Assembly: GCF_008124525.1 (NCBI RefSeq)
Contig: NZ_VNHJ01000001.1
Coordinates: 248,001 to 312,000, forward strand
Direction: 5' to 3'
Origin: Oceanicella actignis
Lineage (GTDB): Bacteria > Pseudomonadota > Alphaproteobacteria > Rhodobacterales > Rhodobacteraceae
DNA length: 64,000 nucleotides
A program made the translations under genes and the position numbers. The notes beneath the pieces are model-generated. The model ran no database searches and was not told the DNA's origin. It worked only from the letters and a program-made list of their open reading frames with translations. Below are positions 49,615-64,000 of this stretch, one piece after another (position 1 is the stretch's first letter; each line of letters opens with the position of its first letter).

Positions 49615-49658
49615 TGGAGGCGACGACCGGAATCGAACCGGTGTACACGGATTTGCAA
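49615..49658 (-). tRNA. 3' half of tRNA-Cys (GCA), split by prophage integration; attachment site
   Basis: Minus strand: the segment reads TTGCAAATCCGTGTAC, then a perfect T-arm ACCGG-TTCGATT-CCGGT, then CGTCGCCTCCA with the CCA end at 49615. The anticodon loop TTGCAAA gives GCA, i.e. cysteine. Upstream (past 49658) the 5' strand of the anticodon stem, D-arm and acceptor are missing: the sequence changes abruptly, and the anticodon-stem partner of TCCGT is absent. This is what remains when a phage integrates at the anticodon loop of a tRNA gene. The intact tRNA should lie at the other prophage end. Confidence 0.8.
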
Positions 49659-49757: not shown

Positions 49758-50525
49758 TCACGCGGCCGCCTTGGCGGCCATGTGCGCCTGGATCGTCGCC
49801 CGCTCTGCCGCCGTCGGGGTCCAGTCATGCACGATCACCAACTCGCGCAGCCGAAGATCGACGCCGCGCGTGCCTGCATAGCCGAGCCACAGGCGCTGCC
49901 AGCTAAGGACGGTCTCCGGCGTTACCGCGAAGTCGTACGCCGTCCCGTTGACCACCGCGCTCTGCGTCAGGTGCGTGCCGAAATAGTCCACCCAAAAGCT
50001 CTGCGGAACCGCCTGCCGAGGCGACATCCCGTAGTTGCCATTGTTTCGACCGACGACAACCCCGGCGCTCGTGGCGTTGCACATCACGCCGGTCGGATCT
50101 TGATAATCAAAGGTGTTATTCGTCTCCCATGCCAGACTCCAAAGCCGACCATAGGCGTCCGTGGACGTGTAGCCGAGAGCGGCGGCGATGTAGATGGTTG
50201 AGATGTTGGGGTAGGACGAATGGACCTGCCACAGATGCCCGCGCGACGTCTGGCGAATCTGACCGACACCGCTTACAACATCGTAGACCGCCGCTGACGA
50301 GAAACTGTAGGAGTGATTGCCGTTGCCGCTCAAGTCGTCAAACGCCAAGACAGGATCGCCGGGCGCGCTGACCGGGATCGTCCGGGCCGCGTCTTGCCAC
50401 AGGCTGGACGTCTGGCTGGCGTCGATCCAGATGCCGCCCTTCCCGCTCGCGAAGGCCGCGGCGATGATCTGCTGCGCCGAGGCGGCGGCGGCCAGCGATA
50501 CCCTGCGCGGCATGTCCAGAAGCAT
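49758..50525 (-). CDS. Putative tail fibre / receptor-binding protein (lectin-like)
   Basis: A 255-residue protein with no membrane segment, rich in Ser, Thr, Tyr and Trp. Its start (ASGKGGIWIDASQTSSLWQD) and the segment FDDLSGNGNHSYSF look like a concanavalin/LamG-type beta-sandwich of the kind found in phage fibres. It is the last gene before the attachment site, overlaps the DUF2793 gene by one base, and has clearly lower GC than its neighbours, as expected for exchangeable host-range genes. The fold is inferred by eye. Confidence 0.5.
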   Translation of the reverse strand: MLLDMPRRVSLAAAASAQQIIAAAFASGKGGIWIDASQTSSLWQDAARTIPVSAPGDPVLAFDDLSGNGNHSYSFSSAAVYDVVSGVGQIRQTSRGHLWQVHSSYPNISTIYIAAALGYTSTDAYGRLWSLAWETNNTFDYQDPTGVMCNATSAGVVVGRNNGNYGMSPRQAVPQSFWVDYFGTHLTQSAVVNGTAYDFAVTPETVLSWQRLWLGYAGTRGVDLRLRELVIVHDWTPTAAERATIQAHMAAKAAA

Positions 50526-51322: not shown

Positions 51323-54300
51323 TCAGAAACTCAGCACGAAGTCAGCCGGCGCGCCACGCCCGACCGCCTCCGAAATCTGGTAGATGCGCACCGCCAGGCT
51401 GTCGCCGGGCCCCAGAGGCGCGCCCCAGTCCGCAACCTGATCGGCCTCGGCGTAGAGCACGCTGGTGGTGGTCGAGCTCAGCACCCGCTTGACCGTCGCG
51501 CCGTCGAGGATCTCGACCTCGTAGGCCTCCGAATCCTCGCCCAAGGGCACGTCTGCCGGCCGCCAGTTGTCCGCGGCGAGCGCGCGCGACCGTCTGATCC
51601 AGCTGATGGTCAGATCGCCCGGCGTTCGCGGCCTGCGCCACGGCTGCTCGACATGGGCCGGCGAGAACGGCCGCAGCCCGACGCCATCGGGCGTGAACTC
51701 GGCGGCGACGTAGCTGTCGTCGCTCACCGGCCGCGTGGCGGGGCCGATGCGCCAGTTCCACGGAATGCCGAGATCGGCCTCGGAAACGGGCAGAGACGGG
51801 ACAGCCTCGTCCAGCACGACGACGCGCGCGCCGGCCGGCGTCGGATCGCCCATCGCCCACTCGGTGCCGCGCTGGCCGCGCAGCAGCCGCGTGAGCCGGT
51901 AGCGGCCGGGCGCCAGCAGCTCCGCCTCGCCGGCCTGGACGATCTCCCAGGCCCCGGGCGCGCTCTCGACCGCAATCGCGTTCGCGCCGCCGAACAGAGC
52001 GATGTCGGTGACGCTCTCGAGCGTGCCGGTCAGCAGATCGACGATCATCTCGTTGCCATGATCGAAGCGAGAAGTCGGCCCGGCGTGGAAGTCCGTGACC
52101 AGCGTGCCGATGCGCGCCTGCGCGCCGAGCGCCGTCAGCAGCTCGAACCCGTCCGTCGATGGGCTGCGGAACACCGCCATCTCGCCCGGCCACGGCACCG
52201 AGAAGGCGGCGATGCGCGGTCGATGGGCAGGCGCATCATCGGTGAGCTGCGGAAGGTCAAGGAACACAACCTCGGGCGCGCCAAAGACCGCCATGCGCGC
52301 GAGCGCGCTGGCCCGCGATCCGCCGGGCGGCAGGTCGTAGGCCTCGCGATCCTGCCGGACGGCTTCCACGGCGCGCGCATCTGCGTCGGCGACCGAGACG
52401 ATCCGCATCGGCGTCGCGCGCCCGTCGTGATCCAGAGTCACCACATCGGCCGGATCAAGCGCCAGGCGCGACGGCGGCAGGCGGAAGACCGCGCCCTCGC
52501 GCCCCGCCCAGGCCTCGATCAGCGCGCGCCGACACCGGCGTTCGGCCTCCTCTGGCGGCGCCGCCATCGGGAAGGTCTCCGACGTCACGCGCGAGGAATC
52601 GACCGTGATGCGCCGCGCCTCCACCTGGGCCGCCTCATAATCCTCGTCCGCGCGCGCGACCTGCCATTTCAGCGCCTGCGGCAACTCGGTCTCCTGGCCG
52701 CGCGTCAGCTCGAGCACGTCGCCCTCGCGCGCAGTCACAAGATCGTCCGGCGCGACCCCCGCCACCGGCCCCCGCCCGCGCATGACGAAGCGGATGACGC
52801 CCTCGCTCTCGACGGCATCGAAGCCGAAATGCCGCGCCAGCGTGGTGATCGACGCGCGCGGGGACTCCAGCGCCGCGATCACATGCCCGTCGACCGCGCC
52901 CCACAGGCCGGACACGTCGATGCGATCCTCGGGCAGGCCCGCGCGCGCGCAGATGTCGCGCACCAACGCCGCCAGAGACGCAGCGCCGAGGCGACCGGTC
53001 AGCCAATGCCCGCGGCGCCAGTTCTCGCCATCCGCCCAGACGTCCGTCAGCGCCGGGAACCACGGATATGGCCTGGCGTCCCACGTCCACGCCGCCGATC
53101 CGGCGATGTCGACCATGGGGCCGGCGTAGACGCTGGACGTCGGGTTGCGGGAGGGATCCGACCAGTAGAGATACGCCGCCTCGAGATAGGCGCGCTGGAT
53201 GGCGTCGTCGCGCCAGCCGCGCGAGAACCAGGGCAGCGCGCTCTCCGAGGATTTCGCGTCGAAGAAGACGTTCGGCTGGTTGCTGCCGCGGTCGATGGCC
53301 GGGCAGCCGATCTCGGTGAACCGAATGGGCTTCGACTCCGGCGTCCAGGCGGTCGGCGTGGAGCTCTCCACGCCGCCGGGCCGATCGTAGTGCGGATTCG
53401 ACCACCAGCTGCGCAGATCCTTGAAGCGGAACACCCAGGGCTTGCCGGCCGCGCCGTCCGTGATCGGGGTGCGGATCTGCGCGGCGCGGTCATCCTCCGA
53501 AGCGTAGAACCAGTCGTAGCCCTCGCCGCCCTCGATCTGCGCCTGCAGGTAGCCGCGGTCGTAGATCGAGGGCCAGCCCTCGGCCGCGTCGGCATGCTCG
53601 AAGCCGTCGCGCCAGTCGGAGAGCGGCGCGTAGTAGTCGATGCCCACGAAGTCGATGTTCGCATCGGCCCACAGCGGATCCAGATTGAAGATCACGTCCC
53701 CGCTGCCATCCTGCGGATGGTGGCCGAAATACTCCGACCAGTCGGCGGCGTAGCTGATCTCGACGTCCGGGCCAAGGATCGCCCGCACATCCGCCGCCAG
53801 GCTGATCAGCTGCTGCACGGCAGGGTAGGCGCCGGTGTCGTCGCGCACGCTCGTCAGGCCGCGCAGCTCCGATCCGATCAGGAACGTGTCCACGCCGCCC
53901 GCCGCCGCGCACAGATGCGCGTAGTGCAGCACCATGCGCCGGTAGCTCTGCTCGGTCGGATCTCCTGTCCACGTCACCTCATCGCCGGACACCGCGAAGT
54001 CCGCTGGCGTCGCCGCGCCGAAGAACGCCGCGATCTGCGTAGCCGCGTCGGCCGTCTTGTCCGCCGTGCCTGGCAGTCCGGGCGCAGGGTCCACCGTGAT
54101 GCGCCCCCGCCATGGGTGGGCGGGCTGGCTGGTCTCGCGTTCGCGCAGATCAACCTGGCCGATCGTTAGCTGCGTCAGGTTGACCGCGATCGCCGCCACG
54201 TCCGCGCGGAACTGCAGCCTGATCCAGCGAGAGCCGGGCGGGATCGTGCGCGTGAGCGAGAAACTGTCCGGGTTGCCCGCGAACGGGTTCGCCCACACGC

Positions 54301-55801
54301 CGCCGGCCAGCACCGAAGCCTGGAAGTCCTTTCCGCCCCCGGCAGCCTCTGGAATGCCGAACACGTCCAGGTAGGGAGTACCCCAGTTCAAGAAAAAGTT
54401 GCCCGCCGTGCCGGCCACGGACACCTGCACGAGTCCCGCGTCCACCTGAGCGGCGCTGATGCCCAAGGCGCGCAAGTCGAAGTCGCGGACGATGACCGCC
54501 TCCTCGACGCCGATTGTATCCCAATCCCACCAGTCTCCGTTGATGGGATTGGGATTCTGATGATTGGCCGAGAACAGGTCGTCCTGCGCGCCCGCGAGGA
54601 TGATCCCGTTCGTGCCAAATCCGAAGCCGTCGCCGAGATAGACGAAGTCCTGCGAGCCCTGCCAGGGGTTGGGCAGCCCGTTGCCGGACGGGATGTCCAT
54701 CTGGATGAACGGATAGAAGCCGACGCGCAGGCCGCGCGCCTTCATCTCTCGGATTGCCTCGAGCACGGCCACGTCAGCCGGCGTGCCGCCATAGGCCGCG
54801 CGGCCGTAGCTGTCCTGGCTGACCGCATGCGCCGTCGCGCGCGTGACCCCGTTCACCTCCCAGGTCAGCGGCGTGGTGGTCTTCGCGGCATCGTCCACGC
54901 CCGGTCGCAGGCGACACTCCGCAGCGCGCAGATCGTCCCCGAACCAGGCGACGGCGACGTTCACCATTTCGACGTGAGGCGCGCTCGCCTCGAGACGGTC
55001 CAGCGACACGACCATGTCGGTCTTGTCGTTGTCGGCGTTAAGGTTCTCGGCCGTCTGCGCGCCGCGCGCGCCCTTGCGCACGGCCGTCGTGCCATACACC
55101 CATTCTCCCGACGCCGGGATCATTGTGACGGTCTTCACAAGACCCTCGAGCGTGTCCGGATCGGCCAGCGGCGCGAACACCTCGAACGAAATCTGCGGCA
55201 GGCGGTTGCCGAAATTCGCCAGCGGCAGATCCTCGATGACGACGTAGGCTGTGCCGCGATAGGCCGGCGTGCCGTCGGCGCCCATCTTGCCCGCGATGAA
55301 CGGATCGGGCTCCTGCGCTTCGTCGCCTGGATACCAGCGCCAGGTCACGCCGGTCATGTCCAGCGGCTTCCCGTCCGCCCAGATCCGCCCGATGCCGGCG
55401 ATGGGCCCTTCGCAAAGCGCCACGGCGAAGCTGGCGTAGTAGAGATACTCGGTCGTCGTGACCTTGCCGCCGCCGCCGCCCTTGCCGCCGCCCTCGGTGC
55501 TGGTCTTGCGCTCCTCCCGAAAGTCGGTCGCCCAGATCACGTTGCCGCCGATGCGCATGCGTCCATAGACGCGCGGGATGACGGCGCCCTCCGTCGAGGA
55601 CGTCAGGGTCAGCTGATCGAGCCGCGCGCCCTCGACGCGTTGCGACGGCGCGAGCACCGAGGAGATGATGTAGGTGTCGATGGCCGACCCGATGCTCGCG
55701 CCGACGAAGGCGCCGATGGTCGCGCCGCCGACGCCAAGGATCGACCCGCCGATCGCCCCGCCGATGGCCGCGCCCGCCGCGCCCAGGATCACCGTCGCCA
55801 T
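51323..55801 (-). CDS. Tail-tip hub / host-specificity protein (GTA gp15-like)
   Basis: A 1492-residue protein. It begins with a Gly-rich hydrophobic stretch (1-50), then a tail-tip region, a TIM-barrel/glycoside-hydrolase-like domain (from about 330, GFYPFIQMDIP, to about 790) and RIFT-like tail domains toward the C-terminus, the GTA gp15 layout. It probably forms the tail-tip hub and contacts the cell. Relative to the usual continuation of GNGLPNP straight into PWRGRI, about 175 residues (381-558) are inserted, with a beta-rich composition and lower GC. It starts 1 base after the peptidase stop, RBS GAGG. Confidence 0.85.
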   Translation of the reverse strand: MATVILGAAGAAIGGAIGGSILGVGGATIGAFVGASIGSAIDTYIISSVLAPSQRVEGARLDQLTLTSSTEGAVIPRVYGRMRIGGNVIWATDFREERKTSTEGGGKGGGGGKVTTTEYLYYASFAVALCEGPIAGIGRIWADGKPLDMTGVTWRWYPGDEAQEPDPFIAGKMGADGTPAYRGTAYVVIEDLPLANFGNRLPQISFEVFAPLADPDTLEGLVKTVTMIPASGEWVYGTTAVRKGARGAQTAENLNADNDKTDMVVSLDRLEASAPHVEMVNVAVAWFGDDLRAAECRLRPGVDDAAKTTTPLTWEVNGVTRATAHAVSQDSYGRAAYGGTPADVAVLEAIREMKARGLRVGFYPFIQMDIPSGNGLPNPWQGSQDFVYLGDGFGFGTNGIILAGAQDDLFSANHQNPNPINGDWWDWDTIGVEEAVIVRDFDLRALGISAAQVDAGLVQVSVAGTAGNFFLNWGTPYLDVFGIPEAAGGGKDFQASVLAGGVWANPFAGNPDSFSLTRTIPPGSRWIRLQFRADVAAIAVNLTQLTIGQVDLRERETSQPAHPWRGRITVDPAPGLPGTADKTADAATQIAAFFGAATPADFAVSGDEVTWTGDPTEQSYRRMVLHYAHLCAAAGGVDTFLIGSELRGLTSVRDDTGAYPAVQQLISLAADVRAILGPDVEISYAADWSEYFGHHPQDGSGDVIFNLDPLWADANIDFVGIDYYAPLSDWRDGFEHADAAEGWPSIYDRGYLQAQIEGGEGYDWFYASEDDRAAQIRTPITDGAAGKPWVFRFKDLRSWWSNPHYDRPGGVESSTPTAWTPESKPIRFTEIGCPAIDRGSNQPNVFFDAKSSESALPWFSRGWRDDAIQRAYLEAAYLYWSDPSRNPTSSVYAGPMVDIAGSAAWTWDARPYPWFPALTDVWADGENWRRGHWLTGRLGAASLAALVRDICARAGLPEDRIDVSGLWGAVDGHVIAALESPRASITTLARHFGFDAVESEGVIRFVMRGRGPVAGVAPDDLVTAREGDVLELTRGQETELPQALKWQVARADEDYEAAQVEARRITVDSSRVTSETFPMAAPPEEAERRCRRALIEAWAGREGAVFRLPPSRLALDPADVVTLDHDGRATPMRIVSVADADARAVEAVRQDREAYDLPPGGSRASALARMAVFGAPEVVFLDLPQLTDDAPAHRPRIAAFSVPWPGEMAVFRSPSTDGFELLTALGAQARIGTLVTDFHAGPTSRFDHGNEMIVDLLTGTLESVTDIALFGGANAIAVESAPGAWEIVQAGEAELLAPGRYRLTRLLRGQRGTEWAMGDPTPAGARVVVLDEAVPSLPVSEADLGIPWNWRIGPATRPVSDDSYVAAEFTPDGVGLRPFSPAHVEQPWRRPRTPGDLTISWIRRSRALAADNWRPADVPLGEDSEAYEVEILDGATVKRVLSSTTTSVLYAEADQVADWGAPLGPGDSLAVRIYQISEAVGRGAPADFVLSF

Positions 55802-55802
55802 G

Positions 55803-56243
55803 TCAGACCTCGCCCCGGGCAGGGAACAGGAAGGCGTAGGCGATGCGCCGCCGCCAGGCTTGCGTGAGCGGCTCCTCGATCACGCCGAGGCGCTCGTAGG
55901 AGTGGATGAAGCTGCGCGGCCCCGTCATGATGCCGACGTGCTTCGCGATCGCGCGCCGCGCCATGCGGAACAGGACCAGCGCGCCCGGCCCGGCCTCGGC
56001 CGGAGAGATCTCGATCATCATGCTCCTCGCCCCCTCGGCGAGCACTTCGCGCGGCCCCGTCTCGCCCCAGTCGCGGCTATAGGGCGGGATCGGGAAAGGC
56101 TCAGGCCCCACAACCTCGCGCCAGACCCCGCGCGCGAGCCCGAGGCAGTCGCAGCCGACGCCGCGCAGGCTCGCCTGGTCGTGGTAGGGTGTGCCCAGCC
56201 ACGCTCGCGCCGCCGCGATCACCAGTTCCGGGTCCGCCGTCAC
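55803..56243 (-). CDS. NlpC/P60 phage cell-wall peptidase (GTA gp14-like)
   Basis: A 146-residue hydrolase with the catalytic Cys in GVGCDCLGLARG (Cys33 most likely) and His in AKHVGIM. It cleaves peptidoglycan peptides during tail penetration or assembly. The start is GTG 56243, overlapping the DUF2163 stop (GTGA); the longer frame to 56357 runs into that gene. The gene lies between DUF2163 and the hub as in GTA clusters. Confidence 0.88.
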   Translation of the reverse strand: MTADPELVIAAARAWLGTPYHDQASLRGVGCDCLGLARGVWREVVGPEPFPIPPYSRDWGETGPREVLAEGARSMMIEISPAEAGPGALVLFRMARRAIAKHVGIMTGPRSFIHSYERLGVIEEPLTQAWRRRIAYAFLFPARGEV

Positions 56244-57124
56244 AGCACCTCTCCCGTGTGCCCGCCGTCGCGCGTCGCGTAGCGCATCACCGCGTCCTGG
56301 CCGGGAATGTGCGGGAAGCCCCGGAAATTGGCGGCGTTCGCGAACTTCGCGCGGCACGTCTCGATCCGCTTGTCACAGCCGGCGCGCGCGACGAAAGCGT
56401 CGCCGACCGACACCTGGCGCACGGGCGGCTCGAGCAGCGTGATCGTCACGACGCCGTCGGCGATCTCATGCGCCGCGATCTCAGCCGAACGGCCGGCGTT
56501 CGCGCCGCTCGTCCACTCGACGTATCCCAACGCGAACCAGCCAGCCTCGAAGGCCTCGAGGCCGTAGACCGAGAAACTGCGCTCGCGCAGAATGCCCGTC
56601 ACAGAACCTGCGGATTTGAAAGCCGGATCCTCCAGGTCGACCTTGCAGCGCGCGTCGCCCAGCGCGGCGTCGCAGGTCGCCTGATACGTCCGGCCCACCG
56701 TCTGATTGAGCACGTGGGACAGGCTGCGCACCTCCGCCGTGAACGCGACGCGCCCGCGCCGGATCTGACCGATGGCCCCGCGCCGCATCAGCACGCGCTG
56801 CGAGACGTCCTGCCAGTTCACCCGCCAGACCTCTACCTCGGCGTTGTCCCAGCGCCCGTCGATGATGTCGGTTTCGGTGATGCGATCAGAGCTGAGCGCG
56901 CCTTCGGCGTCCTGCGCATCGACCGCGAGATCGGAGGCGGAGCGGATCTCGGCGGCGGTGAAGCCGCTCTCCGGCTCGAAGTCGACGCCGTCGAAGCTCA
57001 GCGTCCGGTCATGGTCGGTGAAGCCGAACACCTCGCCGTCGGCGCGCGTGATCCGCCAGCACCAGGCAAGCGTCGTCGTGCCGTCGTCGAGATGCGCCTG
57101 CAGTTCTGGAGAGATGGACTTCAT
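56240..57124 (-). CDS. DUF2163 phage tail protein (GTA gp13-like)
   Basis: A 294-residue protein with the family signature CDKRIETCRAKFANAANFRG followed by FPHIPGQD near the C-terminus; the paired cysteines probably bind a metal or cluster. It starts MKSISPELQAHLDDGTTTLA. It is a tail-tip (distal tail) component. It overlaps the spanin-like lipoprotein gene by 4 bases and is separated from DUF2460, its usual neighbour, by about 4 kb. Confidence 0.9.
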   Translation of the reverse strand: MKSISPELQAHLDDGTTTLAWCWRITRADGEVFGFTDHDRTLSFDGVDFEPESGFTAAEIRSASDLAVDAQDAEGALSSDRITETDIIDGRWDNAEVEVWRVNWQDVSQRVLMRRGAIGQIRRGRVAFTAEVRSLSHVLNQTVGRTYQATCDAALGDARCKVDLEDPAFKSAGSVTGILRERSFSVYGLEAFEAGWFALGYVEWTSGANAGRSAEIAAHEIADGVVTITLLEPPVRQVSVGDAFVARAGCDKRIETCRAKFANAANFRGFPHIPGQDAVMRYATRDGGHTGEVL

Positions 57125-57363
57125 CGGCAGGTTCCCGTCATGCGATCATCGAGGTCGGCGATCCACAGCGCCCACGGGCGCGGCACTTCGACCAGCGACG
57201 CAGCAGGCGGGCGCGCCAGACGTGCCTCGGCATAGGCCGCGCAGCCCGCATCACCAGCGCCCGTCGTTGCGGCGCAGCCGCTCAGCGGGATCGCCAGCGT
57301 CGCGGCCATCGCGCACCGCCGAGCGCCCGCTCTCGATCCGTTCGTGCATCCGTTCCAGCGCAT
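57121..57363 (-). CDS. Putative o-spanin (Rz1-like) lipoprotein, nested out of frame
   Basis: An 80-residue frame with a lipoprotein-type signal ending in IPLSGCAATTG (Cys30), then GCAAYAEARLARPPAAS and the end DLDDRMTGTCR. Similar endings are seen in small proteins next to lysis genes in rhodobacterial prophages. Its first 113 bases overlap the anchored coiled-coil gene (57251-57484) in another frame, the layout of Rz/Rz1. It would sit in the outer membrane and join the inner-membrane partner. The start at 57363 is chosen because it gives basic residues before the hydrophobic part. Confidence 0.6.
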   Translation of the reverse strand: MRWNGCTNGSRAGARRCAMAATLAIPLSGCAATTGAGDAGCAAYAEARLARPPAASLVEVPRPWALWIADLDDRMTGTCR

Positions 57364-57484
57364 CGCGCTCCGCCTCCCTTCTGCCTTCGCGCCGCCCTCT
57401 GGCGCGACCGAAGAACCCCCCGACAACGACGCCCAGCAAGGCGCCCAGACCCGCCAGCAGCCACCCGATAAGGTCCAACGCCAT
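57251..57484 (-). CDS. Putative i-spanin (Rz-like), anchored basic helix
   Basis: A 77-residue protein with one N-terminal membrane helix (MALDLIGWLLAGLGALLGVV) and a charged helical tail (REGRREAERDALERMHERIE). It is short for Rz, but it shares DNA with the lipoprotein frame, as spanin pairs do. It starts 7 bases after the baseplate-like gene. A non-spanin membrane role cannot be excluded. Confidence 0.55.
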   Translation of the reverse strand: MALDLIGWLLAGLGALLGVVVGGFFGRARGRREGRREAERDALERMHERIESGRSAVRDGRDAGDPAERLRRNDGRW

Positions 57485-57491
57485 CGCAACG

Positions 57492-57815
57492 TCACTCCGG
57501 CACGGGGATGGACTGGCGCGTGAGGAGACCGGCCAGGTGGACATAGCCGTCCACCCACACCGCCAGCGCCAGGCTGCGATCCGTCGGGATGCCGGCGTCC
57601 GCCTCGGCAGCCGGGACGACGATGTCCACGCGCCCGGACGGTCCGTCGACCACCTGCGCGTGGGCGGCGAACGTGGCCAGCGCATCGGTGCTGCCCACCG
57701 GCCCGATGGCCATCTGGATGGACGCGCCGGACACGTCGATCGGCGCGCCGTCTTCATCGAGGACCGTCAGCCGCAGGAAGAGCGGCTCTCCGGCGTAGGA
57801 TCTGATTGAGACCAC
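57492..57815 (-). CDS. Small phage protein, baseplate (BppU-like) type
   Basis: A 107-residue beta-rich protein (GEPLFLRLTVLDEDGAPIDV ... LALAVWVDGYVHLAGL). The pattern resembles N-terminal domains of upper-baseplate proteins, but the match is only by eye. It has no membrane segment. The start is GTG 57815 with an AGGAGG site. It follows the esterase gene by 13 bases. Confidence 0.5.
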   Translation of the reverse strand: MVSIRSYAGEPLFLRLTVLDEDGAPIDVSGASIQMAIGPVGSTDALATFAAHAQVVDGPSGRVDIVVPAAEADAGIPTDRSLALAVWVDGYVHLAGLLTRQSIPVPE

Positions 57816-57828
57816 GCTTCCCTCCTTC

Positions 57829-59469
57829 TCATGCGGCGATCACCGATTCCGACTGGGTCACCGCGCGTTCGGTCCCGTTCTTCCGGCCCGTGACGAGCAG
57901 CGTGTATTCCTGCCCCGGCGTCAGCCCCGTGACGTCGATCTGCACGTCCGTGTTGGCCGTGACCGCCATCTGGCCCGCATCGACCGGCTCGAAGGCCGCG
58001 GTCTCGACGTCCTCGGGGCGCATGAAGCCGCGCGCGCCCGCATGCAGCGCCCAGCTCAGATCGCCCGTGAAGGCCGGCCGCACCGAGAACGACGCCGCCC
58101 CGCCCGCCGTCGAGACCAGCGCCAGGTCCGGCGCGAACTTGGCGTTCGCCCAGCGCCGCACCGTCGCCACCTCGCCCAGCTGGCCCGCGGCGTCCTCGAG
58201 CACGAAATGGCAGTCCTGCGTCACGTTCGACTGGAACACGCCCGAGCCCGACCACCAGACCGCCTCCTGATCCGCCGTCACGGCCTTGCGAAAGCCCGGC
58301 GCGGCGGCCGAGGCGTCGCGGATCGCGGCGGCGTCGGGAACGGGCGCGTCGGCGTCGGTGACCAGCGCGTGGATCGTGCCCGAGGCCGCCGGGGTGGCGG
58401 CGATGCGCATGTTCGTGCCCCCGTCGTCGATGAACAGCGGCGGCACATGAAACCACGGCCGCAGCCCGGCGAAGGGAAAGCCCGTCACCAGCCCGTCGCC
58501 CGGCCGCCCGTAGCTCTGGCGGAAATGGGCGAAGACCGCGTCGCCGATCGCCGCCTGCGCGGCCGCGTCGTAATGGATGCCGTCGCCCACCGTCTGCCAG
58601 GCGGGATCGCGCGCGATCACCGCCGCGTTCGGGATCGAGGCGGCCAGCGCGTGCAGGCGCGCATTGGCGGTCTGCTTGCGCGCGTCGAGCGCATCAAAGA
58701 TCTCGACGAAGACCGCCGGCGCCTCGACCCCCAGCGCGGCGCGGATCTGGCGCACCCAGTCGGCGAAGCGCACGTCCAGGCTCTCGGCCATCGAGGCGCC
58801 GCTCGGGTGCAGCGTGGTGCTGTCCTTCTCGCCGATGACGAAGATCAGCCCCTGGATCAGCACCGTCTTCGCCGCCGCGAGCGAGGTCAGCGTCTCGCCC
58901 GAGCTCTGGCGCAGCGCGGTCAGGATCAGGTCCTGCCCCGGCCCGCCCCAGCGGAAGTGATCGACCGAGCGCCCGCCCTCGGTCTGCTTGAGGATGTAGA
59001 GACTGGGCGCCGCGTCGTTGCGCCACGAGGCCGGCGCGCCGCCGCCCAGCACATGCCGCACGAGCCCGATCTCGGGCCCGAACGAGGCCGTGCCCTCGGG
59101 GATGCCGTTCGCGCCCGTGGTCCACACCTTGCCCGAGGTGCGCGGCGAGGCGTCCGTCGCCAGCCCCTGCGCCTCGAAGCGGCCGGCGGTCGCCCCCGCC
59201 CCGCGCGAGCTCAGCCGCCACCAGGGATGCACGGCGCGCTCGGCCGCGCTCAGGAACGCGACCGCCTGCGCCGGGTCCGCCTTGGCCGGGTCCTGCCGCC
59301 AGGGCGCGTAGCCCTCGGCGTTCGACTGGCCGAAGATCAGCCACAGCGCGACGGTGTTGTCTGGCCAGTCTGGCGTCGGCGCCGCCGGCGCACGCGCAAC
59401 GCGGAGATCAAGTCGCGTGATGCGGCGGCGCGCCTCACCTGTGAATGCGGGGCGAAACGTTCCCACCAT
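57829..59469 (-). CDS. SGNH/sialate-O-acetylesterase-type phage protein
   Basis: A 546-residue protein. An N-terminal stretch is followed by an SGNH esterase domain: block I is IFGQSNAEG (nucleophile Ser49) and the Asp/His end is VGDGIHYD. The C-terminal half is beta-rich. Such enzymes remove acetyl groups from surface sugars, so a virion-borne role in loosening host polysaccharide is likely (inference). The start at 59469 shares a base with the preceding small gene stop (TGATG). It is in the lysis/envelope group between DUF2460 and DUF2163. Confidence 0.75.
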   Translation of the reverse strand: MVGTFRPAFTGEARRRITRLDLRVARAPAAPTPDWPDNTVALWLIFGQSNAEGYAPWRQDPAKADPAQAVAFLSAAERAVHPWWRLSSRGAGATAGRFEAQGLATDASPRTSGKVWTTGANGIPEGTASFGPEIGLVRHVLGGGAPASWRNDAAPSLYILKQTEGGRSVDHFRWGGPGQDLILTALRQSSGETLTSLAAAKTVLIQGLIFVIGEKDSTTLHPSGASMAESLDVRFADWVRQIRAALGVEAPAVFVEIFDALDARKQTANARLHALAASIPNAAVIARDPAWQTVGDGIHYDAAAQAAIGDAVFAHFRQSYGRPGDGLVTGFPFAGLRPWFHVPPLFIDDGGTNMRIAATPAASGTIHALVTDADAPVPDAAAIRDASAAAPGFRKAVTADQEAVWWSGSGVFQSNVTQDCHFVLEDAAGQLGEVATVRRWANAKFAPDLALVSTAGGAASFSVRPAFTGDLSWALHAGARGFMRPEDVETAAFEPVDAGQMAVTANTDVQIDVTGLTPGQEYTLLVTGRKNGTERAVTQSESVIAA

Positions 59470-59567
59470 CAATCTCCGCGCCTCCCACGCGAGGCGGCGA
59501 CGCTCAGGGCCACGATCAGCATCCCGAGCGCGCCACCAGCCATGAACCCGGAGATGAAATCAAGCAT
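59469..59567 (-). CDS. 32-residue single-helix membrane protein
   Basis: A very short open frame: MLDFISGFMAGGALGMLIVA, then a short basic tail. It overlaps the stop of the preceding holin-like gene by 8 bases and the start of the esterase gene by 1 base, which suggests coupled translation. Size and position fit a small lysis-module membrane peptide. It was found by reading the sequence; support is positional. Confidence 0.5.
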   Translation of the reverse strand: MLDFISGFMAGGALGMLIVALSVAASRGRRGD

Positions 59568-59790
59568 CGCCCCGGAACCCCCGCTCCAGACGGTCGCGGA
59601 CGCCGATGAGGCCGAGACCGAGGAAGATCAGGCCCGCCGGAGACGCGTCGCCGGAACCGGCGAACAGCGCCAGCAGCCGGCCGAGCTCGCCAACGGGTTC
59701 GGACGCGGGCGCGGCCAGCGCCGCAACGCCGGTGGTCGTCGCCAGTACGCCTGACCACCATGTGAGCGACCGCGGGCGGATGTAGCGCAT
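59560..59790 (-). CDS. Small holin-like membrane protein
   Basis: A 76-residue protein with two hydrophobic segments (about 10-28 and 37-62) and charged ends. It follows the endolysin gene directly, as holins do. Its ribosome site is GGAGGTGATCC immediately before the ATG, a complete match to the 16S 3' end and thus unusually strong. No specific holin family is recognised. Confidence 0.55.
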   Translation of the reverse strand: MRYIRPRSLTWWSGVLATTTGVAALAAPASEPVGELGRLLALFAGSGDASPAGLIFLGLGLIGVRDRLERGFRGDA

Positions 59791-59793
59791 GGA

Positions 59794-60423
59794 TCACCTC
59801 CGAAGCAGTTTGCGGATCAGTTCGAGCGCGCGCGCGAGCCACAAGCCAAGCCGCATATCCGGCCCCCGCGCCGGCAGAAGTGCGCGCGCCTCGCCTGCCG
59901 TCAGGCGGCGGACAGGTTCCGACCAGCGGATCTCGCCCGTCCCGTCCACAGCCCACACAGGGATCGGTCCGCCGGGGTATCTGCCCGTCACGAACAGGCA
60001 GACCTCCGCCTCGCGGCGCGGAATGATCGACGCCGGCCGCCGCCAATTCATGAATGCGGCCGCGGCCCCGGCCTTGTCGCCCTCGTTCAGGCGCCGCGTC
60101 AGCTCGGCCCGCGCTATGCCGCCCGTGTTGAAGTGGAACGACACCAGCGCGTCGAATTCGTGCTGTTCAAGCTGCGCGGTAACGGCGCGCGAGACGTCGG
60201 CCTCGTAGCGGGCAAGGTCGTTGCGAAACACCCGGAACGCCTCGCGGATCCCGGCCTCCAGATCCTCCGGCATCCCGCGGGGCATGGTCGCCGGATCGGG
60301 CGGACCGGCAGCTGCGGTGTGACCGATGCCGAACGTCCAGACGCCGGCGGCGTCGAGATACGGCGCGGGGACGACGCCCTCGAAGCGCGCGATCGCCAGC
60401 ATGCCGTCAGCCGAGACCTTCAT
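59794..60423 (-). CDS. GH24-type endolysin (T4-lysozyme-like muramidase)
   Basis: A 209-residue enzyme with the T4-type catalytic triad Glu15, Asp24 and Thr30 (RFEGVVPAPYLDAAGVWT), spacing E-x8-D-x5-T, and the EFDALVSFHFNTG segment. It cuts the glycan strands of peptidoglycan. There is no cleavable signal; a C-terminal amphipathic helix (about 190-209) is present. RBS GGAGGAAG; the start overlaps the upstream coiled-coil gene by 4 bases. Confidence 0.9.
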   Translation of the reverse strand: MKVSADGMLAIARFEGVVPAPYLDAAGVWTFGIGHTAAAGPPDPATMPRGMPEDLEAGIREAFRVFRNDLARYEADVSRAVTAQLEQHEFDALVSFHFNTGGIARAELTRRLNEGDKAGAAAAFMNWRRPASIIPRREAEVCLFVTGRYPGGPIPVWAVDGTGEIRWSEPVRRLTAGEARALLPARGPDMRLGLWLARALELIRKLLRR

Positions 60424-60767
60424 CGCGACTTCCTCCCCTCGATGACGGCCAGACGCTCGGACATGCGGTGCAGCGTGCTCACGCCGTCCCCGACGTTGCG
60501 CCGCAATGCCTCGATCTCGGCCCGCATCATGCGCGTCTCGGCCAGGGTCTCCTCGGCTGCGCGCCGCAGCTTGATGACCTCGGCGTTGGTCACGTGCCAT
60601 TGGTCCAGGTTCTCGCGCAGCTGCCCCACGCCCGTCGCCGCCAGCTCCAGCATGCGCGACTTCCGCTGCAGCCATTCGGTCAGCGGTTGCCGATAGATGA
60701 TCAGGCCGACGACGATCAGCCCGTAGATCACGATCGGCTCGCGCAGCAGTTCAATGTCGAGCGGCAT
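60420..60767 (-). CDS. Anchored coiled-coil protein in the lysis group
   Basis: A 115-residue protein with one N-terminal membrane helix (about 12-27, PIVIYGLIVVGLIIY) and a long coiled coil (about 70-110). This is the shape of an i-spanin or a holin regulator. It overlaps the endolysin start by 4 bases and the preceding holin-like gene by 17. A second, shorter Rz-like protein is found downstream, so the two roles are not resolved. Confidence 0.55.
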   Translation of the reverse strand: MPLDIELLREPIVIYGLIVVGLIIYRQPLTEWLQRKSRMLELAATGVGQLRENLDQWHVTNAEVIKLRRAAEETLAETRMMRAEIEALRRNVGDGVSTLHRMSERLAVIEGRKSR

Positions 60768-61170
60768 AGGGTCCCCCACGCTTGAGCACCGCGACGGCGT
60801 CGATCGCCGTCCCGACGAGGATGGAAACGCACGCAGCCGTCGCCCCGGAGTAGATCGCCCATGTGCTGCCGGACGTGCCGAAGGCGGCGAACGCAAGCTG
60901 GCCGGACACGCTGGCGATCCCGGCCAGGCCGGCCGCCCTCACGACCGGCGAGTAGCGCCACATGCCGTTCACGCGGCATCCGATGGCGAGCAAGATGCTG
61001 GACAGGATGCAGATGATCCCGCGCCAGCGGGCCGTCTCGTAGTCCAGCCCGGCCCAGCTCAGGCCGGGGTCGTTCGGCCAGATCGAGACCGCGGCTCCCC
61101 AGTAGAGCGCGACCATTCCGATCACGATCTCGCCGGCGCGCGGATGCGGGCTTCGCACTTGTCCGGTCAT
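60751..61170 (-). CDS. Holin-like membrane protein (about four helices)
   Basis: A 139-residue hydrophobic protein with about four membrane segments and a basic end (VAVLKRGGPYAARH). Position directly before the coiled-coil and endolysin genes suggests a holin or phage-membrane protein. The start overlaps the DUF2460 stop by 4 bases (ATGA). Confidence 0.5.
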   Translation of the reverse strand: MTGQVRSPHPRAGEIVIGMVALYWGAAVSIWPNDPGLSWAGLDYETARWRGIICILSSILLAIGCRVNGMWRYSPVVRAAGLAGIASVSGQLAFAAFGTSGSTWAIYSGATAACVSILVGTAIDAVAVLKRGGPYAARH

Positions 61171-61793
61171 CTGCGCACCTCGATCAAGGGGATCGACGCG
61201 ATGGACCCGAGCCGCTCGATGTCGAGCGTGACGTCGAGCGCGTCGGTGTCGAAGCGGACGGGAACGTCGAATTCGAAGCCGGCGGTGATGGCGGCGCCGG
61301 AAGGCGGGGCGGCGTCGAAGGTCACGAGGCCGGTGGCGACGTCGACGGACCAGCCGGCGGCCTGCTCGACGCCGTCGAGCGCGACGGTCACGCTGCCCGC
61401 GACCGGCTTGGAGATGGTCCGCGTCCAGCTCTGCGCCCCCGAGGCGTAGACCTTCGCCAGCTGGAACGACGTCGTCGCGCCGTCCCCGGTTCCGATCACC
61501 TGGTCGGTCGGCGACGGCGCCTGCGAAGGCAGACATGACTTGTAGTCGGCCCAGTCCTTGAAGCGGAAACCGTAGAGCCGCCCGTTCCGCGCCTCGAAGA
61601 AGGCGACAACCGCCGCCAGATCGTCGGCGCTGCGGATCCCGTAGGCGACGTCGTAGCGCCGCCGGCTGTTCGCCCAGCTGGCGTTTCGCTCCTCGTCGCC
61701 GGAGGCGAGCTCGACGATCTGCGTCTTGCGTTCGGGCCCGCCGCGCGCGCCTCGGCTGATGTCCACTGGGAACCGGACCTCGTGAAACGCCAT
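61167..61793 (-). CDS. DUF2460 phage tail protein (GTA gp12-like)
   Basis: A 208-residue protein matching DUF2460: AFHEVRFPVDISRGARGGPE, FEARNGRLYGFRFKDWADYK and a C-terminal VRFDTDALDVTLDIE. It is a distal tail protein. The start at 61793 overlaps the tape-measure stop; a GTG at 61796 is equally possible. The site GGAGGGGG precedes it. Confidence 0.92.
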   Translation of the reverse strand: MAFHEVRFPVDISRGARGGPERKTQIVELASGDEERNASWANSRRRYDVAYGIRSADDLAAVVAFFEARNGRLYGFRFKDWADYKSCLPSQAPSPTDQVIGTGDGATTSFQLAKVYASGAQSWTRTISKPVAGSVTVALDGVEQAAGWSVDVATGLVTFDAAPPSGAAITAGFEFDVPVRFDTDALDVTLDIERLGSIASIPLIEVRR

Positions 61794-64000
61794 CACAGCC
61801 CCCTCCGCCCGAGAGAAACGGCGCGCGCGATGTCCGCGGCGACCTGGGCCCGCGATTGGCGGAAGCTTTCCACATCGCGCGCCATGATGGTGACGTTGAC
61901 ACCGCCTCCGCCGGCTGCGTAGGCCCGCGCCTCGCGGCGCGACAGGACCAGCTCGCCACGCTGCAGGATCGCGGGCACTTCGTCAGACCGCAGCCCGGCC
62001 CAGCCGCCGCCGTGCATGCGCGGCGCCCCGGCAAAGACCATCGCGGGCACGGTCCGGGACGGTGCGGCGCCGCCGACCACGCCGCCGGCATGGAAAATCG
62101 AGGCGGACGTGCCGCCGCCGAAGGCAGACCCAAGGGCCTTGGCGACACGCTCAAGCAGGATCTTGCGCAGCGCGATCCTCGAGAGATCGGCGATGATGGA
62201 CGAGGCCAGGCTGCGGAAGTCCAGCTTGCCGGTCCGAACGAAGTTCGCCACGGCGTTTTCCGCCGAATTGAAAGCGCCGACGATGGCGTCGCCGATCTGA
62301 CCGCCGACATCCGAAGCCTTCTGGGCGTAGGCGTCGAGCGCATCGGTCACGGCCTGCCATCCCGTCGCCGAGTTCTCCTGCGCGGCGCGCGTGGCATCAT
62401 CGATGGCCTGCCGGACGCGGGCGAGCACGTCTGCGGCCGCTTCCTTGCTGACGATGCCGTTCTTGACCGCTTCGTTCGCCACACGTTCCGCATCCGCGTA
62501 GCGCTTCTGCGCCGCGTAGGCGTCGTCCACGCTGGCGCGCAGCCGCTCGAACGCGGCGCGGGCCCTGTCCGTGTCGTCCTGCGCACGCCCGCCTGGGCGT
62601 CGCGCGCGCGTCCTGCTCTCCGCGGCCAGGGCCTGCCGGTTGCGCGCCTCCGCCTGCGCCGCCGCCACGGTCTCGGCGAGGCGCTTGTCGATCTCGGAGC
62701 GCAGGATCGGATCGAACCCGGAGTAGTCGCCGACGCGCGCCTTGAAGCGCAGGGCCGCCAGCTCGCCGGCCAGCGCCACGGGGTCGTCCTTGTACTGGCG
62801 GCGAAGCTCGCTCTCCTTCGCGGCGCTGGCGGCGGCTGCGGCGGCGTTCTCGGCAGCCCGCGAGGCGCGCTCCATTTGGCTGGCGAGCGCCGCGGCCTGA
62901 TCCGCCGCCGCGGCGAGGCCGCCCGCGATGTCTTCGTCGGCTATGCCGCGCGCGGCGTCCCAGGCCTCCATCAGCGCCTGCTTGAGGTCCTCGCTGATGC
63001 GCATCTCGTCCACGCGGGCGGCGAAGGCTGCGCGCGCCTGCTCGACGCGCAGACGTTCGACCTCGACGCTGTCCTCGCCAAAGGCCTTGATCGCGGCGCG
63101 GATCGCGGCCTCGTCACCGAGCGCCGCCAGCAATGCCTCCGCCTCTTGCCGCGCCTTCTCGGCCGATCGCGCGTGACCATCCGTCGCGACTTTGATCTTG
63201 ACGGTCTCGACGGCCATCTCCTTTGCTGCCCGCGCCGCTTCGCGCGTGGCGGCGGGCAGATCCTTCGCCCGCGCCAGAACCCCGTCGAACGCGTCGTTGA
63301 TCTCGCTGACGGCCGCCGCGACGTCCTCTGGCCCCGCCGCCGCGCCCAGCTGGTCGAGCGCCTCCGCCAGAGCCCTGGCCTCTTGCTCCGTCAGGCCAAA
63401 ATCCTCGCGCAGGTTGGCGAGGATACGTCGGCGCACCCTTGCCTGGTCATCCGGGTGCTCGCCAAGCCTCAGCGCATTGTCCAGAGACTGCAGCTGCCGG
63501 ACGTATCCGGTCAGGTCGCCCAGCTCGTCCCGCATCGCCTCCGCCGCGTCGGCGATCTTGTTCGTGGCGTCGAGCAAGGCGAGGTCAGCCAGCGCCGCAT
63601 AAAGCTCGCGCACCTGCGCGGCCGAGTCGCCGAAATCGATCCGCAGCTCCGCAAGAGGCGAGAGGGACAGCTCGCGAAGCTTCTCGAAATCGCGGACGCT
63701 GCGGGAAAGATCGTCGATCTCGTCGGCCAGGGACCGCGCCTCGTCGCTGGCCGAGGTCAGCCATTGCACGAGCGCCGCGCCCGCGGCGATGGAGCCGAGC
63801 GTGACGAGGTTCAGAGGCGACAGCATGGACAGGAACGCCTGGCCCAGCGCCTGCACAGCCCCGCGCGCGCCCATCGGGCCCAGAACCTGCGTGATCTGCG
63901 TGCCCTGCTGGATCGCGAGAAGAAGCGGGCTCTGCCCGGCCACCAGCATCTGCCCGATGTCGTTGAACTGGGCCGTCAGGTTCGCGACGGATCCCGCGGC
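61793..64000 (-). CDS. Tail tape measure protein, N-terminal part outside the window
   Basis: At least 735 residues; the reading frame is open to the right edge, so the true start is beyond 64000. Visible: GSVANLTAQFNDIGQMLVAG close to the edge, a hydrophobic segment near LVTLGSIAAGAALVQWL, a long Ala-rich coiled coil and the C-terminal IADLSRIALRKILLERV. This is the lambda-type tape measure that sets tail length and helps DNA entry. The last residues overlap the DUF2460 gene. Confidence 0.88.
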   Translation of the reverse strand, partial: AAGSVANLTAQFNDIGQMLVAGQSPLLLAIQQGTQITQVLGPMGARGAVQALGQAFLSMLSPLNLVTLGSIAAGAALVQWLTSASDEARSLADEIDDLSRSVRDFEKLRELSLSPLAELRIDFGDSAAQVRELYAALADLALLDATNKIADAAEAMRDELGDLTGYVRQLQSLDNALRLGEHPDDQARVRRRILANLREDFGLTEQEARALAEALDQLGAAAGPEDVAAAVSEINDAFDGVLARAKDLPAATREAARAAKEMAVETVKIKVATDGHARSAEKARQEAEALLAALGDEAAIRAAIKAFGEDSVEVERLRVEQARAAFAARVDEMRISEDLKQALMEAWDAARGIADEDIAGGLAAAADQAAALASQMERASRAAENAAAAAASAAKESELRRQYKDDPVALAGELAALRFKARVGDYSGFDPILRSEIDKRLAETVAAAQAEARNRQALAAESRTRARRPGGRAQDDTDRARAAFERLRASVDDAYAAQKRYADAERVANEAVKNGIVSKEAAADVLARVRQAIDDATRAAQENSATGWQAVTDALDAYAQKASDVGGQIGDAIVGAFNSAENAVANFVRTGKLDFRSLASSIIADLSRIALRKILLERVAKALGSAFGGGTSASIFHAGGVVGGAAPSRTVPAMVFAGAPRMHGGGWAGLRSDEVPAILQRGELVLSRREARAYAAGGGGVNVTIMARDVESFRQSRAQVAADIARAVSLGRRGL

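Follow-up and report, generated by a model that had tools for sequence, protein, structure and literature searches.

We analyzed a 64,000-nucleotide stretch of the 3.28 Mb genome of Oceanicella actignis (C1:248001-312000, hereafter the window), which holds one end of a prophage whose tail genes resemble those of gene transfer agents (GTAs). On the minus strand, a group of genes at 57121-61170 is flanked by a DUF2460 gene and a DUF2163-type gene lying about 4.06 kb apart, and one member of this group encodes a putative carbohydrate esterase. We observed a second, nearly identical body of this esterase in the same genome, behind a different leader, in what appears to be the head-spike locus of the host's own GTA. 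As presented in Table 1, every gene named in a preliminary description of this DNA was found at its place using reading frames, Pfam and PHROGs, and the lysis genes sit in the tail operon, as had been proposed. The same description had the genes overlapping in a continuous coupled chain: most neighbours do share 1-17 nt, and the nested pair 113 nt, but three junctions are gapped, by 3 nt between the GH24 and 76-aa genes, 13 nt between the esterase and 107-aa genes, and 7 nt between the 107-aa and i-spanin-like genes.

The esterase and a small immunoglobulin (Ig)-like protein of 107 residues make up a cassette of 2 kb (57492-59469). The esterase, of the SASA/SGNH type, matched PF03629 with 37.1 bits against a cut-off of 24.8, over residues 42-314 of a 547-aa reading. 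It carries GQSN from residue 47, GEKD from 213 and DGIHY from 296, which we take to be the serine motif, the GExD block and the C-terminal DxxH with their usual catalytic roles. Its gene overlaps that of a 32-aa peptide by one base. The AlphaFold2 model of the 107-aa protein was mostly beta, with a predicted local distance difference test score (pLDDT) of 63. The best BFVD match of this protein was an uncharacterised phage protein (E 3e-4), and minor tail proteins were among the lower matches. Two matches to PDB sequences, both to a phage baseplate protein, were not significant (E 0.11 and 0.55), and the PDB fold matches all lay above E 0.01. A role as baseplate adaptor is possible for this protein.

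The second esterase copy lies partly at the end of contig C13 and partly at the end of C11, with a 61-nt overlap between the two contigs. The two copies were identical at 464 of 475 and 1105 of 1123 positions, giving about 98% DNA identity over a shared body of 511 codons. Homology starts at the proline before DNTVALW, which is codon 36 of the prophage copy and codon 24 of the second copy, and ends at the stop codon. Upstream of this point stand two unrelated leaders (MVGTFRPAFTGEARRRITRLDLRVARAPAAPTPDW for the prophage copy, MLSLGLSVGALAARARRGGPPSF for the second), and the C11 and C13 stretches fetched outside the esterase had nothing in common with the prophage region (E 1e-10). Gene order, the second copy, its breakpoints, both leaders and the neighbours on each contig are read directly from the sequence. 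No stop codon was present within the read parts of either copy, and a codon comparison made in two pieces (157 and 374 codons, about 20 of them overlapping) counted 15 silent and 9 residue-changing differences. The third-position G+C was 0.949 in the shared stretch, 0.918-0.944 in the GTA capsid, portal and megatron genes, 0.911 in the spike base gene, 0.843-0.919 in five prophage genes and 0.839-0.929 in the neighbours of the second copy; it does not decide the direction of transfer. A GT2 gene adjacent to the second copy, encoded on the opposite strand, extends about 65 nt into the 3' end of that copy (L011:14706-14770), a possible scar of exchange.

Contig C11, which carries the 5' part of the second copy, has immediately upstream of that copy a spike base gene of the Rcc01079 family (NF048002, 92.6 bits against a cut-off of 28, E 1.4e-26), whose stop codon overlaps the start of the esterase by one base. 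The second copy thereby adjoins the base gene as a head-spike fibre (GhsB) gene does. Its first residues, MLSLGLSVG, resemble the base-binding peptide published for the RcGTA head fibre, and this start fits the alternating hydrophobic/small docking pattern of GhsB. The prophage copy has neither feature, its leader being unrelated and the genome's sole NF048002 match, among those listed, being on C11 and not in the prophage. Past the 3' part of the second copy, C13 carries GT2, GT4 and sulfotransferase genes. According to PMC10218006, capsule genes adjoin the spike genes in Rhodobacter capsulatus; with this parallel, the base gene on C11 and the polysaccharide genes on C13 would make a coherent order of base, esterase fibre and polysaccharide genes. 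These features together suggest that the second copy lies in the apparent head-spike locus of the host GTA.

The docking pattern was surveyed in 20 loci from 63 genomes with a base match, namely 18 of the 19 top-listed genomes plus two (G143 and G162) picked for their split prophages. In 8 of the 20 loci, a docking-pattern start came immediately after the base gene, which is 8 of the 13 having a frame of at least 60 aa there; the controls gave 28 such starts among 4000 random positions and 7 among 1472 positions that follow long frames. Genes at the fibre position elsewhere ranged from 261 to 1189 aa and varied in Pfam content. When ten of them were scanned, one had a SASA match over the cut-off, one a GDSL-like match below it, one an Ig domain, and seven no match. 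The spike gene L123 (genome G050) has a SASA domain shortly after its docking-pattern start.

The limits of the element in the window were given by a 44-bp repeat, the right copy of which (C1:340308-340351) is located within a tRNA-Cys gene. From the two repeats, the prophage would span about 42.7 kb and extend rightward beyond the window. Between them lie an integrase (PF00589, E 4e-17), a terminase, a Mu-type portal, capsid E, a tail tube, the GTA-type tail genes and a DUF2793 fibre; the match to a tape measure falls below the model cut-off. Since integrase and attachment repeats are both present, the element is classed as a prophage rather than a GTA, and judged by its sequence it is a complete-looking one with a GTA-type tail and one end in the window. 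A provirus of 42,366 bp in IMG/VR carries esterase and DUF2163-type genes identical to those of the window and evidently comes from the same or a very near genome. The host's GTA cluster is separate from the prophage: on C11 we found terminase, portal, capsid, tail tube and DUF2793 genes, and the DUF2460 and DUF2163 genes are adjacent there.

Three further observations concern these two elements. An RTX repeat protein adjoins the host GTA cluster (L018:390-2468). Beyond the window, the prophage encodes a Mu gpF-like capsid protein (L009:10546-11841) that has a C-terminal ADP-ribosyltransferase-like region (PF01129, E 3e-5). The last prophage gene (255 aa, window 49758-50525) has a 75-residue stretch in common, at 41%, with the gene at the GTA spike-fibre position of another genome (L111); this is a second, distant link between a prophage fibre and a GTA spike, and related stretches also occur in unrelated phages.

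Table 1. Features of the prophage part of the window, in window coordinates.
Feature	Position	Strand	Evidence
DUF2460 (GTA g12-like)	61167..61796	-	Pfam E 1e-94
139-aa holin-like protein with several transmembrane (TM) stretches	60751..61170	-	TM stretches by eye; no significant family (Pfam, PHROGs)
TM and coiled-coil protein (115 aa)	60420..60767	-	sequence
GH24 endolysin	59794..60423	-	PF00959 E 3e-26; phrog_7 endolysin E 1e-33
76-aa two-TM holin-like protein (MRYIRP..LTWW)	59560..59790	-	conserved in the module; no significant family (Pfam, PHROGs)
32-aa one-TM peptide	59469..59567	-	many relatives have a similar short peptide here; no significant family
SASA-type SGNH carbohydrate esterase, putative, 546 aa	57829..59469	-	PF03629 E 3.5e-9, over cut-off
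Esterase stretch in common with the copy at the GTA spike locus (C11/C13)	57829..59364	-	about 98% DNA identity; stop codon is the exact end
Esterase leader, 35 residues, prophage-specific	59365..59469	-	no likeness to the leader of the second copy, MLSLGLSVGALAARARRGGPPSF
107-aa Ig-like phage structural protein, cassette member	57492..57815	-	phrog_1084 E 5e-6
i-spanin-like (Rz-type) protein: one N-terminal TM, then charged coil	57251..57484	-	by eye; relatives with the same position
o-spanin-like (Rz1-type) lipoprotein, lipobox LSGC, conserved tail DDRMTGTCR	57121..57363	-	reading frames; overlaps the i-spanin gene in another frame
DUF2163-type baseplate hub protein	56240..57124	-	Pfam Gp84_N PF09931 and BR0599 PF09356 (taken by us as equivalent to DUF2163)
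NlpC/P60 tail peptidase	55803..56243	-	Pfam
Megatron-type tail protein (GTA_TIM, Phage-tail_3, Rcc01698_C)	51323..55801	-	Pfam
Left attachment repeat, 44 bp	49615..49658	.	exact match at C1:340308-340351

The slot between DUF2460 and DUF2163 was then compared with that of relatives. In 198 genomes of the family, profile searches for DUF2460 and PF09931 were made and the best 150 places of each retained. On the same contig and strand, 111 of the 150 DUF2460 places were paired with a PF09931 place, and the 39 unpaired ones were omitted, some of which may be pairs with a partner outside the best 150. Among the matches listed, 90 of the 111 paired places were adjacent (5-29 nt) and 21 were split, the latter from 14 genomes including this one, so that the two tail genes, described earlier as normally adjacent, are indeed so in most cases but not in all. 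For the 20 other split places, found in 13 further genomes, frames were read (L096 and L097 in part) and tblastn was used, and a GH24 gene was present in 17. The three without it were L104 and L105, where a long extension is fused to DUF2460, and L086, with no recognisable module; in the former two, both of genome G183, the extended DUF2460 protein is about 900 aa in all. In IMG/VR, the best 80 of 505 DUF2163 relatives yielded 71 loci with an upstream DUF2460, of which 39 were adjacent, one was at 496 nt and 31, including this prophage, were split. The other 30 split loci all had a GH24 match and 27 of them a match to the 76-aa protein (tblastn, E 0.01); the family and IMG/VR sets may include the same or related strains.

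In its full form, the module of the relatives has the order 115/116-aa TM protein, 43-aa TM peptide, GH24, 76-aa TM protein, 33-aa peptide and spanin pair, and in shorter versions some of these genes are missing. The window has in common with it the GH24 endolysin, the 76-aa protein, the short TM peptide and the spanin pair, in the same order. The lysis part of the group is an ordinary, recurrent arrangement, although DUF2460 and DUF2163 are more often adjacent. The preliminary description had presented the group as an insertion between normally adjacent tail genes, and on this point it was not borne out; the gene-order comparison that it had called for, with the remark that the same order in most related phages would make the group ordinary, came close to that outcome.

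In contrast, the esterase cassette was seen only here. Among the matches listed in the family survey, the split in the window was the longest (4060 nt, against 906-2212 nt for the other 20), and when measured by tblastn it reached 4045 nt, while none of the other IMG/VR loci exceeded 2335 nt. The excess corresponds to the two cassette genes, which stand between the 32-aa peptide and the spanins, and neither the esterase nor the 107-aa gene had a match in the 50 other split loci (20 family and 30 IMG/VR; tblastn, E 0.01). A surface-sugar esterase within a lysis group is therefore as unusual as first supposed. The two genes that open the module, of 139 aa and 115 aa, differ as well, having no tblastn match in the same 50 loci; many relatives carry the 115/116-aa TM protein at the place of the 139-aa one, and several the 43-aa TM peptide at the place of the 115-aa one.

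The last two genes of the module, previously listed as separate envelope proteins, look like one Rz/Rz1-type spanin pair instead: by eye, a protein with an N-terminal TM segment and a coil is overlapped, in another frame, by a lipoprotein gene with the lipobox LSGC. Loci with a gap above 1 kb, this prophage among them, numbered 50, and 36 of these had the o-spanin motif; of the 50 other loci, some of them short contigs lacking DUF2460, 8 had it. On the viral contig L183, an HNH-like endonuclease frame (195 aa, by eye) seemingly lies within the o-spanin gene, downstream of the i-spanin.

We also searched for relatives of the esterase and for other cases of sharing. The genome samples overlap and contain no other member of the genus, the order and class scans mostly scored at most three candidates per genome, and the peptide-pattern scans are sensitive to close relatives only. 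In the 198 family genomes, the one other esterase match (43% over 87 aa) looked by eye like a different kind of SGNH hydrolase; in 390 genomes of the order, six weak matches were by eye unrelated, some of them dehydrogenase-like; in 385 genomes of the class, no relative was found. None of 36 pattern matches in GTDB contigs was confirmed, and there were no matches in phage records, plasmids or PDB sequences. In IMG/VR, one of 17 pattern matches was confirmed, at 100% identity.

As regards spike genes of other genomes, those at the spike position in L112, L120, L123 and L125 had no confirmed relative in the peptide-pattern scan of IMG/VR. In phage records, L112 and L123 were without relatives, and L120 and L111 had partial or distant ones only. 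The spike-position genes of G143 (L124) and G162 (L125), compared with 14 chosen genomes including their own, gave besides themselves only matches of about 28-42%. The G143 protein has a match of about 28% to part of open frames of about 1500 aa, located about 3 kb from that genome's own DUF2163 places (C4/C9/C23).

Taken together, these results make it probable, in our judgement, that the esterase is a virion sugar esterase rather than a lysis enzyme, and that it was recently shared between the prophage and the GTA with its docking tip swapped. The slot between DUF2460 and DUF2163, which holds lysis genes in many related prophages, would have received the two-gene cassette within that module. 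The enzyme would most likely be borne on the virion and strip acyl groups from the host surface polysaccharide at adsorption. In the GTA, the copy would occupy the head-spike fibre (GhsB) position, with a star-type peptide fitting the spike base pentamer; in the prophage, the other leader presumably docks to the tail or baseplate, perhaps via the 107-aa protein. The C11/C13 junction, attachment to the virion, deacetylation, its substrate and any direction of transfer are what we infer from the arrangement of the genes.

Several observations weigh against a shared virion esterase. Near-identical sharing was found in this genome; the two others tested (G143, G162) did not show it. The spike base is linked to the polysaccharide genes only through the C11/C13 junction. 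The docking pattern is missing in 12 of the 20 spike loci, 7 of which have no frame directly behind the base, and L112 and L120 have starts that are similar by eye and fall outside the pattern. The prophage leader (MVGTFRPAFTG...) had no match besides itself in the sequences compared. The esterase modelled as protein alone gave a pLDDT of 35, too poor for a fold search. The codon differences divide into 9 silent and 1 replacement in the 5' piece, and 6 silent and 8 replacements in the 3' piece; with replacements exceeding silent changes in the latter, constraint is clear in the 5' piece only.

The preliminary description had left a choice between a virion enzyme and a part in host exit, in which the esterase would trim capsule or lipopolysaccharide at lysis and keep progeny from sticking to debris. 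The esterase gene does lie within the lysis module, with its one-base overlap to the 32-aa peptide gene, and co-transcription with the lysis genes is compatible with such a role. Its leader has no visible signal peptide or TM segment (by eye), the 50 other split loci, most of them with lysis genes, do without it, and the virion enzyme is favoured over exit because the apparent head-spike locus of the GTA has the same body at its fibre position, following a peptide that resembles a spike-docking one. A dedicated exit function is thus unlikely, and one virion esterase could do both jobs. It is also improbable, and a shade more so, that the second copy is no working GTA spike gene but a prophage-derived or host esterase that neighbours the spike base by chance. 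The inferred contig junction and the lack of a close esterase relative in the other sampled genomes would fit chance; the one-base overlap with the stop codon of the base gene and the docking pattern of the leader speak against it, as does the variation in length and Pfam content of genes at this position elsewhere. An assembly artefact or mixed culture, which one copy broken at contig ends might suggest, is very improbable given copies about 2% different with differing leaders and neighbours, and a genome of completeness 99.9 and contamination 0.1. A virion esterase shared between the prophage and the GTA is the reading we retain.

The closest known parallel is the RcGTA head spike, made of the base Rcc01079 (GhsA) and the fibre Rcc01080 (GhsB). 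The second copy resembles this fibre in standing behind a base of the same family, in its leucine/glycine-type start and in the glycosyltransferase genes on the contig of its 3' part; it differs in that the effector here is a SASA esterase for which no close relative was found. The RcGTA fibre has 325 residues and attaches to the capsule, as stated in PMC7296036. According to PMC8601537, citing Westbye et al. 2016, a GhsB relative is common to RcGTA and the phages RcapMu and RcWaterboi. The likeness to our case is a head-fibre relative common to phage and GTA; the identity threshold there was 32.5%, whereas here about 98% DNA identity is seen within one genome, with a different leader. RcGTA-like head-tail genes are reported for vB_MseS-P1 and the Methylobacterium nodulans prophages in PMC11409702, which also draws a comparison between the RcGTA head fibre and a capsid fibre gene that some phages have in their structural region; unlike here, no near-identical sharing with a resident GTA was seen in the accessible parts of that paper. 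TspA, a detachable RcGTA tailspike, is likewise a GTA-associated enzyme acting on extracellular polysaccharide, but is described in PMC13420450 as a trimeric biofilm-degrading tailspike and not a head-spike esterase.

Temperate Klebsiella phages also carry SGNH-fold receptor-binding enzymes, thought to deacetylate capsule, and those of prophages include active esterases, as far as PMC13123978 reports them. Host and phage group differ, and activity was found there, whereas our enzyme is known from its sequence. In titles and abstract openings, a search with most subscription papers outside its reach, we found no near-identical prophage/GTA spike enzyme. Sharing of GhsB relatives at low identity is already on record, and in the literature so covered we did not find described a near-identical body with a break at the docking leader.

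Overall, the position of the lysis group is in itself ordinary, and the interest lies in an apparent natural domain swap, with one enzyme body behind two leaders, for a GTA head spike and presumably for a phage particle, in one genome and about 2% apart. Two questions thereby become testable. One is how receptor specificity is renewed in GTAs, whose spread is not that of viruses; the other is whether a prophage and a GTA in one host compete for passage through the same capsule or share it. More tentatively, and with somewhat more doubt than confidence on our part, prophages and host GTA may draw on one pool of receptor enzymes whose bodies are swapped at the docking leader, so that both particles would open the same polysaccharide barrier. 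If this is true, the host range of the GTA would be renewable from resident prophages, or the reverse.

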